Of a stretch of DNA of 29,165 nt, positions 10,814-25,856 are shown one piece after another (the stretch's first letter is position 1; each line of letters begins with the position of its first letter). This DNA comes from a virus. The stretch is from positions 1 through 29,165 of the IMG/VR virus record IMGVR_UViG_3300009481_000067; one strand, given 5' to 3'. The notes below the pieces were generated by a model, which searched no databases, was not told the origin of the DNA, and saw only the letters and a list, made by a program, of their open reading frames with translations. The position numbers and the translations under genes were made by a program.

Positions 10814-11140
10814 ATGCTGGATATCACTCAAGAAGCTAAAGACTATCTTCGCGTTATTACAAAGGAACACAATAAAGAATATATAGCCTTTGGGGTTAAG
10901 GGTGGAGGGTGTTCAGGGTTTTCCTATATATGGGATTTCTCTGAAGGCCCTCTTAAAGAAGATGAACTAATAGATTTAGGAGATGGTATATCTCTTGTAG
11001 TTGATGGCATGAGTGTTATGTATACGTTAGGAAGTAAAATAGATTACGTTAAAGAGTTAGGCGGTACATATTTAAAAGTATTAAACCCTATGGCAGACAG
11101 TCAATGTGGTTGTGGAGAATCTTTTTCAGTTAGGATGTAA
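10814..11140 (+). CDS. IscA/ErpA/HesB-like A-type iron-sulfur carrier (108 aa)
   Basis: Length and motifs fit A-type carriers. Cys33 lies in GGCSGFSY and Cys98/Cys100 in the C-terminal QCGCGESF, giving the three-cysteine signature that binds an Fe-S cluster and passes it to apo-proteins. The N-terminal ITQEAKDYL matches the family's start. HesB/IscA-like genes are known auxiliary genes in marine phages; possible clients here are host proteins or the phage's own Fe-S candidates (the RecB/Cas4-like nuclease and the Cys-rich plus-strand protein). It sits among lysis and miniprotein genes, with 5 nt before and 3 nt after it, and is likely expressed late. Confidence 0.88.
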   Translation: MLDITQEAKDYLRVITKEHNKEYIAFGVKGGGCSGFSYIWDFSEGPLKEDELIDLGDGISLVVDGMSVMYTLGSKIDYVKELGGTYLKVLNPMADSQCGCGESFSVRM

Positions 11141-18783: not shown

Positions 18784-18812
18784 GTTATACACAAAACAAC
18801 TGTCTTTGTCAA
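18784..18812 (-). promoter_or_regulatory. Sigma-70-type promoter for the SSB gene
   Basis: Read on the minus strand: TTGACA (18812-18807), a 17-nt spacer and TATAAC (18789-18784), predicting initiation near 18777. It overlaps the 3' end of the polymerase gene and would give a ~30-nt leader before the SSB start at 18747. It fits a need for more SSB than polymerase. Confidence 0.7.
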
Positions 18813-20896
18813 GACATATTTAGCCAGTTGCTTCCTGTTTTTGTCTCGATAGGTAGGGGTACATCCATGTTTATATTATAGTATAAATAGATACGATCCT
18901 TTGTTGAACTAGGAGACAGTATGTCCTCCACAAGTCGTTCAACCCTATCAACTTCTTCATTCGGGCAGTCAAGTAACACACTGTCATGCACCGTATTCAC
19001 TATTGTAGTTCTTAATTTGTTTTTTTGTAGCTCCTCTCTTAATGCAACAAGACACAATGGAACAATGTCTGCCGTAGCTAATGCCTGTACAGGATAATTC
19101 TTTATCTTTGTAGCTCCCGTTGCACCCCCCGTCTTTGTTCTCTTGGCATGAGGAAATGAAAACTGCCTACCTGTTGGCAACGTAATGCATTTATTCTTGA
19201 TAGCCTCAGTCTGTAAAGTCTGATGCCATTTTTTTATGCCAGAGTATTTATCTATGAAGTGTATGTTGTAAGCCTTCTCAGCAGGTGTGCCACTCATCGC
19301 CCCATATAGTGGGGCAAACGTCCTACCCTTGGCCTCTTGCCTAGATGTAGGCTGACCATTGTTAGTCAGATAGTCTGCTGTATATGTGTGAACATCAAAG
19401 CCTGTCTCTATTTCTTCTCTGGCTGTTTCATCAGCAGACAAAAATGTTGCAACCCTAAACTCCAGTTGTGCAAAGTCAAACTCAAGCAGTGTGCCACCCT
19501 TGCCATACCTAGATACGAATGCCTCTTTAACAGGGAAGGTATTGCCCCGTGGCATATTCTGCATATTAGGGGATGAAGAAGATAGTCTACCCGTAGAGGT
19601 ACGGCACTGATTAAAGTCAGCGTAAAGCATATTGCCAATCAATCTTTTTTTGATACCCTCTACAAATGCAGATAGGTATGTCTCCACCGAACCAAGACGC
19701 TCCACCTTTTCCAAAAACTCGATGGCATCTGAATACTTGTCAGGGTTTAGGGATCTAAGTTGCTTGGCTAAAACCCTTAATCTATTTTTGTCTGTACTAA
19801 ATCCGTTAGCCGTTACCCATGTGCTATCGGGTGGAAAGATCTTTAGGCCACCAACCTCACCTGTTTCCATGTATCTCATACCTGCACCACCGCACTCATG
19901 GCAGGTGTGCGCTCTTGAGAAGGGTGTACCATCCTTTTTTATCTTGCGTACCTTGCCCGTTCCTTTGCACGTTTTACATACAGAAGCGGTTGTTTTCATT
20001 ATCTTTCTACATCCCATGCGTACAAGTTTTCTAAATCTGTCTACACTTATCCTGGGTCTAAACGGACTGTCCAGCTGATACAGTACAGCGTGAGCTTTTT
20101 TATCCTTGGGTGTATAAGAGAATATCATAGAGGATACCTGCTCTGGACTACTAAGATTAACAGGTGTATCGCCCATGTAACTGTGTACCAGTTCCTGTAG
20201 CCTACGTATCAATTCCCTTTTTTCCATACGGTAATTAAACTCAACATGATCTAGCTTCTCTTCATCTATGGCTAACCCACCATACTCCATCTCAGATAAA
20301 CACATACACATACTGTTACTTAGATTAACTGTAGGCATCAGCGTAGTGTTCTCCAGATCCTTCATCTGCGCTATATACAAATCCCTTGTGGCGCGAATGT
20401 CTGCCCGACCATACTCCTCGACAACATCCCAAGGCATGGCCTCGTACCCTATACCCTTATCCCAATAGCCCTTGGTTATGTCAGATTTTTTATTAGCTAA
20501 GTCTCGCCTCTCACAACAGGCATCTAGCGACAGGCCCATCCTCTCTCCTCTAGCTAGTATGTATTCACCTATCATAGTGTCGTATATGTCACGGTCATAC
20601 TTAATGCCAACTGACCACAACCACTGCAAGTCATACTTTATGTTGTGACCTATCAACAAGTCAGCCATCTGTATTTTATACTTAACCTGATTTATTCTAT
20701 CTGTTCCATGTGAAACATCTTTGTGATAAACAGCCACGTAATCTTCTTCGCCCGTGTCTACATCCAGTATACCTATGGAAACTAGATCATTGTTTTTGTT
20801 GTGTGGCTTGTTATCTATTATGTTTTCTTTTTTTGTCACACTGTTTTCTATATCAACTACTAATCTTTTAATCATCATACCTCGCAACTCTTCCAT
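18809..20896 (-). CDS. Family A DNA polymerase with 3'-5' exonuclease and DnaJ-like zinc insertion (695 aa)
   Basis: Replicative polymerase. Exonuclease: Asp15/Glu17 (VVDIEN), Asn85/Asp89 (GHNIKYDL), Tyr162/Asp166 (YGRAD). Polymerase: motif A DFAQLEFR (Asp474), motif B RQEAKGRTFAPLYG (Lys523, Phe527, Tyr531) and motif C TVHDS (His637, Asp638). Phe527 falls at the E. coli Pol I Phe762 position. Between the two parts, Cys307-x2-Cys310 and Cys332-x2-Cys335 in CKTCKGTGK and CHECGGAG form a DnaJ-type zinc finger, a trait of HMO-2011-type phage polymerases. The ATGs at 20878 or 20875, behind GCGAGG, are likely alternatives to the 20896 start. Confidence 0.95.
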   Translation of the reverse strand: MEELRGMMIKRLVVDIENSVTKKENIIDNKPHNKNNDLVSIGILDVDTGEEDYVAVYHKDVSHGTDRINQVKYKIQMADLLIGHNIKYDLQWLWSVGIKYDRDIYDTMIGEYILARGERMGLSLDACCERRDLANKKSDITKGYWDKGIGYEAMPWDVVEEYGRADIRATRDLYIAQMKDLENTTLMPTVNLSNSMCMCLSEMEYGGLAIDEEKLDHVEFNYRMEKRELIRRLQELVHSYMGDTPVNLSSPEQVSSMIFSYTPKDKKAHAVLYQLDSPFRPRISVDRFRKLVRMGCRKIMKTTASVCKTCKGTGKVRKIKKDGTPFSRAHTCHECGGAGMRYMETGEVGGLKIFPPDSTWVTANGFSTDKNRLRVLAKQLRSLNPDKYSDAIEFLEKVERLGSVETYLSAFVEGIKKRLIGNMLYADFNQCRTSTGRLSSSSPNMQNMPRGNTFPVKEAFVSRYGKGGTLLEFDFAQLEFRVATFLSADETAREEIETGFDVHTYTADYLTNNGQPTSRQEAKGRTFAPLYGAMSGTPAEKAYNIHFIDKYSGIKKWHQTLQTEAIKNKCITLPTGRQFSFPHAKRTKTGGATGATKIKNYPVQALATADIVPLCLVALREELQKNKLRTTIVNTVHDSVLLDCPNEEVDRVERLVEDILSPSSTKDRIYLYYNINMDVPLPIETKTGSNWLNMS

Positions 20897-23066: not shown

Positions 23067-23501
23067 TTATTTATAAAATATGTGATCTTCAATTTGTAAA
23101 ATGTATTCTCTATTCCACTGTGGATCTACACTAAGCGCATGGTAAAAGACAGCACCTTCAAGTATAGGTATGGATAAACCATAGGTATAGTGAACCTCTT
23201 CCGCTACACGTATGGCTTTATCCCAGGCTCTCTTATCTTTTGGTTTATCGGACAATCCATCACAGTAAAAAGAAAATTGACAGCGATGCTTAACTGGATA
23301 ATCCTGTTTCCATTTATAAGTAGGCCCTTCCTTTATTACTTCACAGATAGTATCAGGCCAACGGCTATCATGTACACGGTTTAGTACTACTTGAGCTACT
23401 GCCATTTGACCTACAGTAGGTTGATCCCTGGCCTCAAAGTAAACTGCTTGGGCAAGACAAGTAATAGATGCACCGAAGGCTAGTACTGTAGCTTCAAGCA
23501 T
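23067..23501 (-). CDS. SleB-like cell wall hydrolase (144 aa)
   Basis: Murein hydrolase of the SleB/CwlJ family. Visible: LAQAVYFEARDQP (16-28) with the catalytic-type Glu23, GQMAVAQVVLNRV (31-43), CQFSFYCDG (74-82), FYHA (119-122) and Trp129, ending in HIFYK. The N-terminal ~18 residues are hydrophobic and could act as a weak export signal. It lies among replication genes rather than next to the lysozyme, overlapping its upstream neighbour by 8 nt. A role in lysis from within, or in virion-associated cell-wall opening, cannot be decided here. Confidence 0.85.
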   Translation of the reverse strand: MLEATVLAFGASITCLAQAVYFEARDQPTVGQMAVAQVVLNRVHDSRWPDTICEVIKEGPTYKWKQDYPVKHRCQFSFYCDGLSDKPKDKRAWDKAIRVAEEVHYTYGLSIPILEGAVFYHALSVDPQWNREYILQIEDHIFYK

Positions 23502-23787
23502 TTTTAACTTGCCTACCTCTGGCTAAGTCGAGGCGATCTGAACCATCTAACACGGGAACTTTAGTATCTATCTCTTCATACTTTTGGATATAGTCTCCGT
23601 TAATGGGTGATGGTTCAAGGCCAAACATATCAGCCAACTCGACCATGCCATCTTCCAATCGCCTTACATCAGACAAACGTACATCGTGAGTGTCGCGGAT
23701 ATAGTTTACCATCTCAGCAGATCTATTTAAGAATTTAATTATGCGATAGATCTGTTCTTCTTTAATTGTTTTATGTGTGCGCTTCAT
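23494..23787 (-). CDS. Hypothetical protein (97 aa)
   Basis: Basic N-terminus (MKRTHKTIKEEQIYRIIKFL) followed by a helical middle and an acidic stretch; no TM, no Cys. The ATG is 4 nt after the stop of a 54-aa gene, behind AAGGAGGAG. The segment DVRRLEDGMVELADMFGL suggests a helix-turn-helix-like or four-helix fold but no family is recognised. Confidence 0.6.
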   Translation of the reverse strand: MKRTHKTIKEEQIYRIIKFLNRSAEMVNYIRDTHDVRLSDVRRLEDGMVELADMFGLEPSPINGDYIQKYEEIDTKVPVLDGSDRLDLARGRQVKNA

Positions 23788-23790
23788 ATC

Positions 23791-23955
23791 TTACTCCTCC
23801 TTTTTGGTAGGGGTTGGCCTAATGATATGTAAAGTTACATTACCTGCCTCACTCTCATACCATTGCGGTTTCCAAGGCGAAGGGCAAGTGTGATACCATT
23901 CAAATAGTTTTGCCATGTCAGCATCCCATCTCAAAGGCTTGTCGTTATCTGTCAT
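23791..23955 (-). CDS. Small hypothetical protein (54 aa)
   Basis: ATG at 23955 behind GGAGGATCAGGCG and overlapping the MazG stop region by 11 nt; stop TAA just before the next start. Product MTDNDKPLRWDADMAKLFEW begins it, with a CPSPWKPQWYE motif and a beta-like C-terminus (GNVTLHIIRP). Trp-rich and short. The function is unknown; coding is supported by the strong ribosome site and tight packing. Confidence 0.55.
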   Translation of the reverse strand: MTDNDKPLRWDADMAKLFEWYHTCPSPWKPQWYESEAGNVTLHIIRPTPTKKEE

Positions 23956-24268
23956 CGCCTGATCCTCCTAACTGTCCTCTGTCTTTTCTTGAGTTTAGCT
24001 TTTTTAAATTAAGTTCTACGACCTCAGTTAAATCTATGTTTAGATCATCAGCAACACGGGCAATGTACCACATTACATCTCCTATTTCTTTTGTAAGATT
24101 TTGCTTTCGTACAAAATTTATTTTCCCGTTGTCATCACGGTAGATCTTTTTAATCTGGTTCATTAGTTCGCCCACCTCGCCAGATAAACCAAGCGATGGA
24201 TAGATTATATCGTCGCTATATATTTTGGTCTTGCGAGTTTCGATTTGGTATTTGTTAAAGTCTAGCAT
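23945..24268 (-). CDS. MazG-like NTP pyrophosphohydrolase (107 aa)
   Basis: Start placed at ATG 24268, 7 nt after AGGAG; longer frames run into the upstream gene. The fold signature is GLSGEVGEL (Glu31, Glu34) and EIGDVMWY (Glu61, Asp64), the EXXE...EXXD metal site of all-alpha NTP pyrophosphohydrolases. The enzyme hydrolyses (d)NTPs, or ppGpp-like substrates in some proposals, and MazG genes are frequent in marine phages. The C-terminus is basic then Gly/Asp-rich. It overlaps the next small gene by 11 nt. Confidence 0.85.
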   Translation of the reverse strand: MLDFNKYQIETRKTKIYSDDIIYPSLGLSGEVGELMNQIKKIYRDDNGKINFVRKQNLTKEIGDVMWYIARVADDLNIDLTEVVELNLKKLNSRKDRGQLGGSGDDR

Positions 24269-24272
24269 ACTG

Positions 24273-24878
24273 TTACTCCTCATAAAATTTTGGATAGGTA
24301 TCTTCAATAGTATATCGTAAAGCATTACGCAATATCTTTTTATCTTTCTTTGATCCAATAAAATATACGTAACGATGTTTTGCACTACGATTAATTCGCT
24401 TGGTTCGGTCTCCTAGGTGGTGTCTACTATGTTTGTTAAATGCCGACGCGATATCTGTTCTCTCTTTTGTTCGCCCCGTAAATAAAAAATTACACGCCTG
24501 ATAGATGGTTCCTATATGTTCTTGCGCGAGATCACTGTAAGACACTACAACCTTTGGCTTTGGTAATAGTTTGAGAGAGCGGGACACTAGGAAAGATGCC
24601 TCGTTTGGTAGATTGTCTTTCAATACTAATCTGTTTAGTTCGATAACCTTTGATCTATGCTCCTCGCCACAGATACCTTTGCACAGTGACGGTGATGCAG
24701 GGCTTCCGTAGGAAACCATTCCAACCAGCATATTATTTCTGAATAGCCCGTAGGCGTAGCTGATGGATGGCATTCTTCTAGCGTAGTGCAACTCTAGTAT
24801 AAATGGCTTCGTTGCCTCATAAGGTATTTGCTGTACCTCATAATCGTTTTGCATTTGGTTTGACCAACCGATAAACAT
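24273..24878 (-). CDS. Mom-like adenine-modification enzyme, GNAT fold (201 aa)
   Basis: Resembles phage Mu Mom, which converts adenine in DNA to N6-(methylcarbamoyl)adenine and blocks host restriction. Motifs seen: GMVSYGSPASPSLC (53-66), ELNRLVL (80-86), VVVSYSDLAQEHIGTIYQAC (110-129), followed by NFLFTG, RTD (140-142) and HRYVYF (168-173). The Tyr-Ser-Asp and the H-x-G-x-x-Y-Q-A-x-N-F segments are the family core. GGAGGTG precedes ATG 24878. Com, the Mu translational activator of mom, is not seen nearby. Substrate and modified bases in this phage are unknown. Confidence 0.78.
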   Translation of the reverse strand: MFIGWSNQMQNDYEVQQIPYEATKPFILELHYARRMPSISYAYGLFRNNMLVGMVSYGSPASPSLCKGICGEEHRSKVIELNRLVLKDNLPNEASFLVSRSLKLLPKPKVVVSYSDLAQEHIGTIYQACNFLFTGRTKERTDIASAFNKHSRHHLGDRTKRINRSAKHRYVYFIGSKKDKKILRNALRYTIEDTYPKFYEE

Positions 24879-24940
24879 AACACACCTCCAATATTAAACT
24901 CTTTTTGCTTTGTTGTTTTGTTGAAGTTTTATTGGGTTTG

Positions 24941-25135
24941 TTATGCCACAAATCTGTGGTCTTGGATAACCCCTACTACATATCCTTTAGGATAGGTGCG
25001 AAGTATACTATCGTATGCTTTGCGTGGGGTTGTCTCATAAGATGGTAGCACTTCGACAGTACCGCCATATTGTTTTTTATAAACTATTTTAAAATTACCT
25101 ACTGTCGTAGGTGGTTTTCTAACAGGTATAATCAT
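24941..25135 (-). CDS. Small hypothetical protein (64 aa)
   Basis: First gene behind the promoter at 25175-25203; ATG 25135 follows AGAGGACAC. Beta-rich look (GNFKIVYKKQYGGTVEVL) then a helix (TPRKAYDSILRTYP) and YVVGVIQDHRFV; no Cys, no TM. A TTG/AT-rich 62-nt gap separates it from the Mom-like gene. It could be a small regulator or partner of that enzyme, purely by position. Confidence 0.55.
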   Translation of the reverse strand: MIIPVRKPPTTVGNFKIVYKKQYGGTVEVLPSYETTPRKAYDSILRTYPKGYVVGVIQDHRFVA

Positions 25136-25174
25136 GGTTTTGTGTCCTCTTTTTTGTTTGTGTTTTAATTTAAT

Positions 25175-25203
25175 TAGTTATATCACAAGATATTCTAAAA
25201 GTC
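25175..25203 (-). promoter_or_regulatory. Sigma-70-type promoter upstream of the Mom-like gene pair
   Basis: Minus-strand TTGACT (25203-25198), exactly 17 nt, TATAAC (25180-25175), start predicted near 25167. It lies in an 81-nt AT-rich gap and would drive the 64-aa gene, the Mom-like gene and those further left. The -10 hexamer equals that of the SSB promoter. Confidence 0.65.
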
Positions 25204-25216
25204 AAATGCTTTTAAA

Positions 25217-25450
25217 TTATTGTTTAACTTCTGTTCTTAAAATATCCCAATCTCTTACCTTAAAACTAGATTTATATTTAGCTTCTTTGCCAAGGCGATA
25301 CACTTTCTTTACATCTAACCCATGCATATCTGCTAGTACCTTGGCATTTTGCATAGACCAGTTAGGGTTAGCCTTGGCAGAGTGCCATATAAATTCCATG
25401 ATAGAATTATACTCTAGTTGTTTTTGAATTTGTTGTTTAGTCAGGCTCAT
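25217..25450 (-). CDS. Small hypothetical protein (77 aa)
   Basis: Overlaps the stop of the 139-aa gene by 14 nt; no clear ribosome site, so translation may be coupled. It contains SMQNAKVLADMHGLDVKKVYR, a helix-turn-helix-like stretch (about residues 32-52), and is basic at the C-terminus. A small DNA-binding regulator is possible; the family is not recognised. Confidence 0.5.
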   Translation of the reverse strand: MSLTKQQIQKQLEYNSIMEFIWHSAKANPNWSMQNAKVLADMHGLDVKKVYRLGKEAKYKSSFKVRDWDILRTEVKQ

Positions 25451-25856
25451 TTGATTTTACTAAACCATCATCAACTAGGGCAGACTTGAGATCATCCATC
25501 TGATCCTCACCCCAATCAGATAGTTTGACGACAGACCAGTCGGGCCTGTTATGATATCGCTCTTCATTTAATCTTTTGAAGATGCCAATAACATCCCCAG
25601 CTTGAGCATACTTTTTAAGACCAGATATACTAATCCGTTTATCGCCTCGCGTCTTAGCCTTGTAGCATCGAATCCCACTGATGACCTCTTCATTAAAGTA
25701 CTCGCTCCTAAATGCTATGCCATTTCCATTTGTTAGGATATTATATGTACCCTCGAACAATTTAATAACGCTTTTGTTTGCGTCTATGATGTGCTTGTCG
25801 AGCATGGTTTGTGTTACCTTGATCTCAGCGTAATCTGTATTAAACATAGAAGTCAT
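25437..25856 (-). CDS. Hypothetical early protein (139 aa)
   Basis: Start set at ATG 25856, behind AAAAGGAAAAACAA, the same leader style as the SSB gene; the longer frame from 25925 runs through the neighbouring small gene. The N-terminal half is beta-rich (YAEIKVTQTMLDKHIIDANK), the middle has SGIRCYKAKTRGDKRISISG, and an acidic C-terminus ends SNEPD. No recognised family. Its place in an early operon suggests host-interaction or regulation. Confidence 0.6.
   Translation of the reverse strand: MTSMFNTDYAEIKVTQTMLDKHIIDANKSVIKLFEGTYNILTNGNGIAFRSEYFNEEVISGIRCYKAKTRGDKRISISGLKKYAQAGDVIGIFKRLNEERYHNRPDWSVVKLSDWGEDQMDDLKSALVDDGLVKSNEPD

Follow-up and report, generated by a model that had tools for sequence, protein, structure and literature searches.

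A virus record in IMG/VR (IMGVR_UViG_3300009481_000067; 29,165 bases, apparently a fragment, and hereafter the window) carries a mom gene, and the explanation that best accounts for our observations, including the control that we propose below, is probably that this gene is functional, is mobile by horizontal transfer and belongs to the Mom family of DNA modification enzymes. In the list of open reading frames (ORFs) of the window, mom is complete from ATG to stop and encodes 201 residues. A Pfam profile search matched its product to PF25680 (Mom) with an E value of 2.2e-35 and 122.6 bits, against a curated cut-off of 27.1 bits, over profile positions 2-197 of 202. The product also matched PHROG 1384, 'Mom-like DNA modification protein' (E 5.8e-54), and, from sequence alone, the crystal structure of Mu Mom, 8bv8 (E 8.4e-11). 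An initial annotation of this DNA had named the gene from a motif set (ELNRLVL, SYSD..H.G..YQA.NF and RTD) and had suggested a profile search as the check; the searches bear out the name, and the motifs that it listed are present, with ELNRLVL at residues 80-86, SYSD at 113-116, H121, G123, YQACNF at 126-131 and RTD at 140-142.

The predicted structure and the conserved residues agree with this assignment. The AlphaFold2 model, computed with sequences from the window and from IMG/VR (predicted local distance difference test score 84, predicted template modelling score 0.81), matched 8bv8 with a Foldseek E value of 1.5e-11, and aligned with 8bv8_A over 182 residues at a Z score of 20.2 and a root mean square deviation of 3.0. 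As the next GNAT enzyme scored far lower, at 12.6, a generic GNAT acetyltransferase is ruled out. Matches to TsaD and MIF, which fell below cut-off or had an E value of 1, were set aside as chance. Sixteen positions are invariant in an alignment of 17 Moms, and every one is kept in the window Mom. Mu H48, Y49, R101, S114, D139 and Y149 (231-residue numbering), which we take to be the active-site residues, align with H31, Y32, R83, S95, D116 and Y126. The window S95 is thus aligned with the serine that is S124 in the 241-residue numbering of Mu Mom (S114 in the shorter one); it is invariant in 17/17 aligned Moms, and the PDB title of 8bv8 reads 'inactive mutant S124A'. Over the whole protein, the window and Mu enzymes are 26% identical. 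Against relatives with measurable (finite) synonymous divergence, the ratio of nonsynonymous to synonymous substitution rates (dN/dS) in mom was about 0.05-0.15, which indicates purifying selection on the protein. Collectively, by profile, residues and fold, the window mom is a member of the Mom family.

The group that Mu Mom adds to the N6 position of adenine is carbamoylmethyl. By analogy with Mu and the rest of the family, we consider it likely that the window enzyme would add an acyl-derived group to adenine N6 in the phage's own DNA, and that this modification would block host restriction enzymes and so protect the phage from them. The initial annotation had likewise suggested that the phage shields its adenines, which is reasonable to deduce from the family. 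What weighs against this extension is that Moms distant from that of Mu might use a different group or have another site of action: the protein would then be a Mom by descent but no adenine carbamoylmethylase, with another acyl group to transfer or a different target, such as another base position, RNA or protein. The low identity to Mu Mom, the KHSRH and KHRY motifs at the C terminus in the clade formed by the marine and Firmicutes-phage enzymes, which are unlike Mu, and the many substrates served by the GNAT fold all favour this alternative. However, every residue invariant in the 17 aligned Moms is kept, among them the serine at which mutation inactivates Mu Mom, and the fold is much closer to Mu Mom than to the best other GNAT (Z 20.2 versus 12.6); we regard a different chemistry as unlikely.

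The DNA polymerase, which carries a DnaJ-like insert, and the HMO-2011-type replication gene order assign the window to an HMO-2011-type marine podophage. Its polymerase is 41-43% identical to those of HMO-2011, CRP-1, CRP-345 and CRP-603, with 43% for HMO-2011 and CRP-345, the nearest being those of Puniceispirillum phage HMO-2011 and the Roseobacter CRP phages. Against this background, the Mom proteins are alike: the window Mom is 76-81% identical to those of L008-L011, L014, L018, L021 and L022, whereas the polymerases of the same phages, where the contig holds one, are 41-44% identical to that of the window, and the helicases about 32%. The surroundings of the gene also differ, as mom lies behind a PHROG 624 or pyrimidine-dimer-glycosylase-like gene in L008-L012 and L023, and behind a small zinc-ribbon ORF in L015. 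In a tree, the Moms of L012 and L023 cluster with the distant L015 lineage (support 100/99), and a topology that holds them with the window's lineage was rejected (approximately unbiased test, p-AU 0.004). The Moms of L006, L007 and L013 resemble that of L009 (86-88%) more closely than that of the window (79-82%). A single clade for the eight Moms of the window's own lineage was not rejected (p-AU 0.39), and exchange of one mom for another within it is therefore not demonstrated. Together, the identities and the tree indicate that mom is exchanged between phage lineages.

The place that mom occupies can also hold another gene. L103 (the same contig as L149) is nearly identical to L007 on either side of mom, and in it an unrelated ORF of 80 amino acids takes the place of mom and is preceded by the same promoter, orf64 and leader (L103:3301-4628). 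This ORF belongs to no known family, and Mom is absent from the whole L103 contig. A GIY-YIG endonuclease-like gene follows the 80-residue ORF in L103 and sits between mom and mazG in L007. A search with primase and polymerase queries, which carry no bias towards Mom carriers, returned eight contigs that span the interval from orf64 to mazG; mom fills it in 7/8 and the 80-residue ORF in 1/8. Comparison of these contigs indicates that mom sits in a slot with an alternative occupant in one near-identical phage, L103.

Upstream of orf64 lies a sigma-70-like promoter, TTGACT-17-TATAAC, that emerged from a looser scan for -35 and -10 elements. A stricter standard scan found nothing at this site, since the last base of the -10 element is C where that scan demands T, and matches at ten of twelve promoter positions are no commoner in the window than chance allows (25 found versus 20 expected). 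The site is kept in nine relatives (L001-L007, L013 and L024) while its flanks diverge, even where another gene has been inserted directly upstream, and it is also present in L103. In L012 and L023 (helicase 76-81% identical), TTGACA-17-TATAAC stands before orf64, followed by an apparent strong terminator and then mazG, with no mom behind orf64. The promoter therefore belongs to orf64, and mom seems to have been inserted downstream of it. The initial annotation had made mom the second gene behind a private sigma-70-like promoter: the second place of mom, in the order orf64, mom, mazG that we find, and the type of promoter are borne out, but mom does not have this promoter to itself.

In Mu, Com and Dam-controlled sites bear on mom, and the initial annotation saw neither a Com-like zinc-finger regulator nor a Dam-controlled site here; it was right on both counts. 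A profile search of the window with PF10122 (Com) gave no match, while Mu itself, the positive control, matched with an E value of 1.2e-10, and no small ORF of the CxxC...CxxC type was seen near mom. Yet this is ordinary. Apart from Mu, Com matched above cut-off in 1/52 Mom-family records searched, with the window among the 51 that show no match above it; these records are mostly fragments, so that absence is not proven record by record, and seven public phage genomes among the material were searched whole. The Com-less state is common among Mom genes and not peculiar to the window phage. GATC is absent from 24657-25489, hence from the promoter and its vicinity. Over the whole window GATC is commoner than in shuffled sequence (106 versus 81, standard deviation 7.8). 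In another phage lineage, a 70-residue zinc-ribbon ORF with two Cys-X2-Cys pairs precedes mom and overlaps its start (L015:7774-7986); it has no match to Com, though its place and size are Com-like.

Between orf64 and mom lies a gap of 62 bases whose conservation exceeds that of the first part of orf64. In the predicted fold of this leader, a stem joins CAUAACA, across the orf64 stop codon, to UGUUAUG, within which the mom start codon lies; the Shine-Dalgarno sequence is partly paired, and the inner stem is AAACUU/GAGUUU. When accessibility was computed with 85 nucleotides upstream of each start, the region from Shine-Dalgarno sequence to AUG of mom was the least accessible of 37 window genes. 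The unpaired probability of its AUG was 0.01, and 3% of upstream shuffles were as low. The hairpin was predicted at all nine mom loci tested, with the start unpaired at 0.00-0.02 in the eight relatives; across the nine loci, shuffled upstream sequence gave mean values of 0.27-0.42, and 0-6% of shuffles were as low. In L103, the stem at the start of the slot gene has ten perfect pairs, and its fold has a z score of -3.3 relative to shuffles. Among 2.9 million viral contigs scanned, ten hold the leader, which precedes mom in nine. The start codons of six other phage moms (A511, Riggi, EauM-23, JeffCo, PM87 and ICP1) were unpaired at 0.18-0.90. The GTG start of Mu mom, in the same computation, was unpaired at 0.00. 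The suggestion of the initial annotation that control differs from that of Mu therefore holds in part: Com and GATC sites are missing, but a hairpin predicted over the mom start in both is a possible parallel.

If the predicted hairpin forms, it could couple mom to the gene ahead of it. One promoter read by the host RNA polymerase would make an orf64-mom-mazG message, in which a hairpin beginning at the orf64 stop codon would hide the mom ribosome-binding site and start codon. Ribosomes terminating at that stop codon would sit within the 5' arm and unfold the hairpin (translational coupling), and Mom would thus be made solely from messages translated through orf64. We put this Com-free translational gating of mom by orf64 forward tentatively, giving it not quite an even chance. 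Mu Mom is harmful to cells and needs tight control, to go by a cited title that speaks of 'a lethal function', and titles cited in the same article have Mu mom translation require Com (PMC4461284); toxicity of this kind would explain a translational lock. A wider version of the idea, in which promoter, orf64 and stop-to-start hairpin form a modular leader that might gate any gene in the slot through orf64 translation, mom mostly and the 80-residue ORF once, and in which a second restraint on Mom, a costly and mobile modifier, would have evolved independently, is one that we hold as possible and rather short of probable.

Several observations weigh against a lock of this kind. The overall fold of the window leader has a z score of just -1.3, and folding energies at the mom loci are at most 1.5 standard deviations better than those of shuffles, with L002 no better at all. 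The hairpin is A+T-rich, the minimum free energy for L007 varies with the stretch folded, and cognate and swapped arms barely differ (-12.4 versus -11.9 kcal/mol). Since a stop codon and a start codon both lie in the outer stem, it does not vary and is beyond the reach of a covariation test; nor are the nine relatives independent sequences. In the Mom lineages of L009, L012 and L015, mom instead overlaps the preceding gene. These weak scores, the lack of covariation, the base composition and the use of plain overlap elsewhere all speak for a reading without a lock, with the orf64 promoter and the strong GGAGG of mom giving constitutive expression and the leader conserved for other reasons, such as recent shared ancestry or a protein-binding site. 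Against this stand the start region that is less accessible than that of any other of the 37 window genes, the same picture in nine loci, and the perfect ten-pair stem of L103 ahead of a different gene; we see constitutive expression as a serious contender that falls somewhat short of an even chance. It could also be supposed that orf64 is a substitute for Com whose protein, bound to the leader, would open the hairpin in trans, as orf64 is small and directly upstream of mom, in the position and gene order of com in Mu. However, its product lacks cysteines and matches no family, orf64 occurs in L012 and L023 without mom behind it, and the N-terminal part of the product is variable, in contrast to the conserved end and leader, a pattern that fits a role in cis better; we think a protein of this kind quite improbable.

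The features discussed here are collected in Table 1.

Table 1. Positions in the window of mom, its proposed control elements and selected genes.
Feature	Position	Strand	Description and basis
Sigma-70-like promoter TTGACT-17-TATAAC, extended -10 (TGn)	25177..25205	minus	Looser -35/-10 scan
orf64	24941..25135	minus	Small protein, first gene of transcription unit; proposed leader for mom
Conserved intergenic leader with predicted RNA hairpin	24876..24945	minus	RNA folding, conservation
mom	24273..24878	minus	Mom-family GNAT-fold DNA modification enzyme, 201 amino acids; PF25680, PHROG 1384, 8bv8
mazG	23945..24301	minus	MazG-family nucleotide pyrophosphohydrolase, third gene; PF03819 E 2.4e-10, PHROG 229 E 2.7e-34
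DNA polymerase A with DnaJ-like zinc insert	18809..20896	minus	PF00476 and PF00684; marker of HMO-2011-type phages

On the minus strand, the genes run in the order orf77, orf64, mom, mazG, the gene at 23494-23787, a cell-wall hydrolase, a short ORF, primase, helicase and polymerase. The orf64 product has no match in Pfam or PHROG; in the window's lineage the gene is conserved beside mom, and in L012 and L023 it adjoins mazG, with no mom between the two. If the first ATG of mazG is used, mazG overlaps the 3' end of mom by 29 nucleotides. Elsewhere in the window, we read the gene at 10814-11140 as an iron-sulphur carrier of the IscA/ErpA type, although its sole match is to an unnamed PHROG family; carrier genes of this type have been reported in HMO-2011-type phages.

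Phages of the HMO-2011 type are described as dominant and broadly distributed in the ocean, and a survey of them does not mention Mom and describes no DNA modification gene (PMC9038755). The window shares with them the polymerase with its DnaJ-like insert, and differs in that four named isolates that we checked (HMO-2011, CRP-345, HTVC033P and CRP-1) are without Mom. We found no literature report of Mom in HMO-2011-type phages, of its exchange between lineages, of a slot with an alternative occupant or of a leader that hides the start. The movement of mom between distant HMO-2011-type lineages points to restriction pressure in marine hosts, and the window offers a test case for the control of Mom without Com that is relevant to most Mom-carrying phages.

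The type of enzyme is already known, and the window mom adds to its family. Mom-family enzymes have been reported in jumbo phages and widely in phages (Iyer et al., 2021, PMC7824862), and in marine 'Charybdis' elements (PMC12324425); compared with the jumbo-phage and Charybdis Moms, that of the window stands alone in a small podophage. A search of genome_contigs returned distant Mom-like proteins only. Among these are Mom-family domains in genome bins of Bacteriovoracia and Bdellovibrionales (L126, L132, L135 and L137), with two copies in some bins and, in the two that were scanned, a C-terminal helix-turn-helix (HTH_17) attached. One phage holds two unlike Mom-family genes in tandem (L039:8013-9415), one with the His-Tyr motif and the other of a Glu-Trp-Leu type without it.

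In annotated phage genomes, the closest relatives of the window Mom are the Com-less 'Mom-like DNA modification proteins' of Listeria A511 and LP-114, Bacillus Riggi, Exiguobacterium vB_EauM-23 and Proteus PM87, which are 45-52% identical to it over most of the protein, and of Vibrio ICP1 (32%). These phages differ from the window in phage type and in the neighbours of mom, and the mom starts of the six folded (A511, Riggi, EauM-23, JeffCo, PM87 and ICP1) are more open. The com-mom system of Mu has the same Mom family, fold and invariant residues, places mom second in a short transcription unit after a small first gene, and has a mom start codon that is likewise predicted to be buried in RNA structure. 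It differs from the window in its Com and its upstream GATC, in a promoter that depends on an activator where that of the window is near consensus, and in the overlap of com with mom, whereas orf64 and mom do not overlap.
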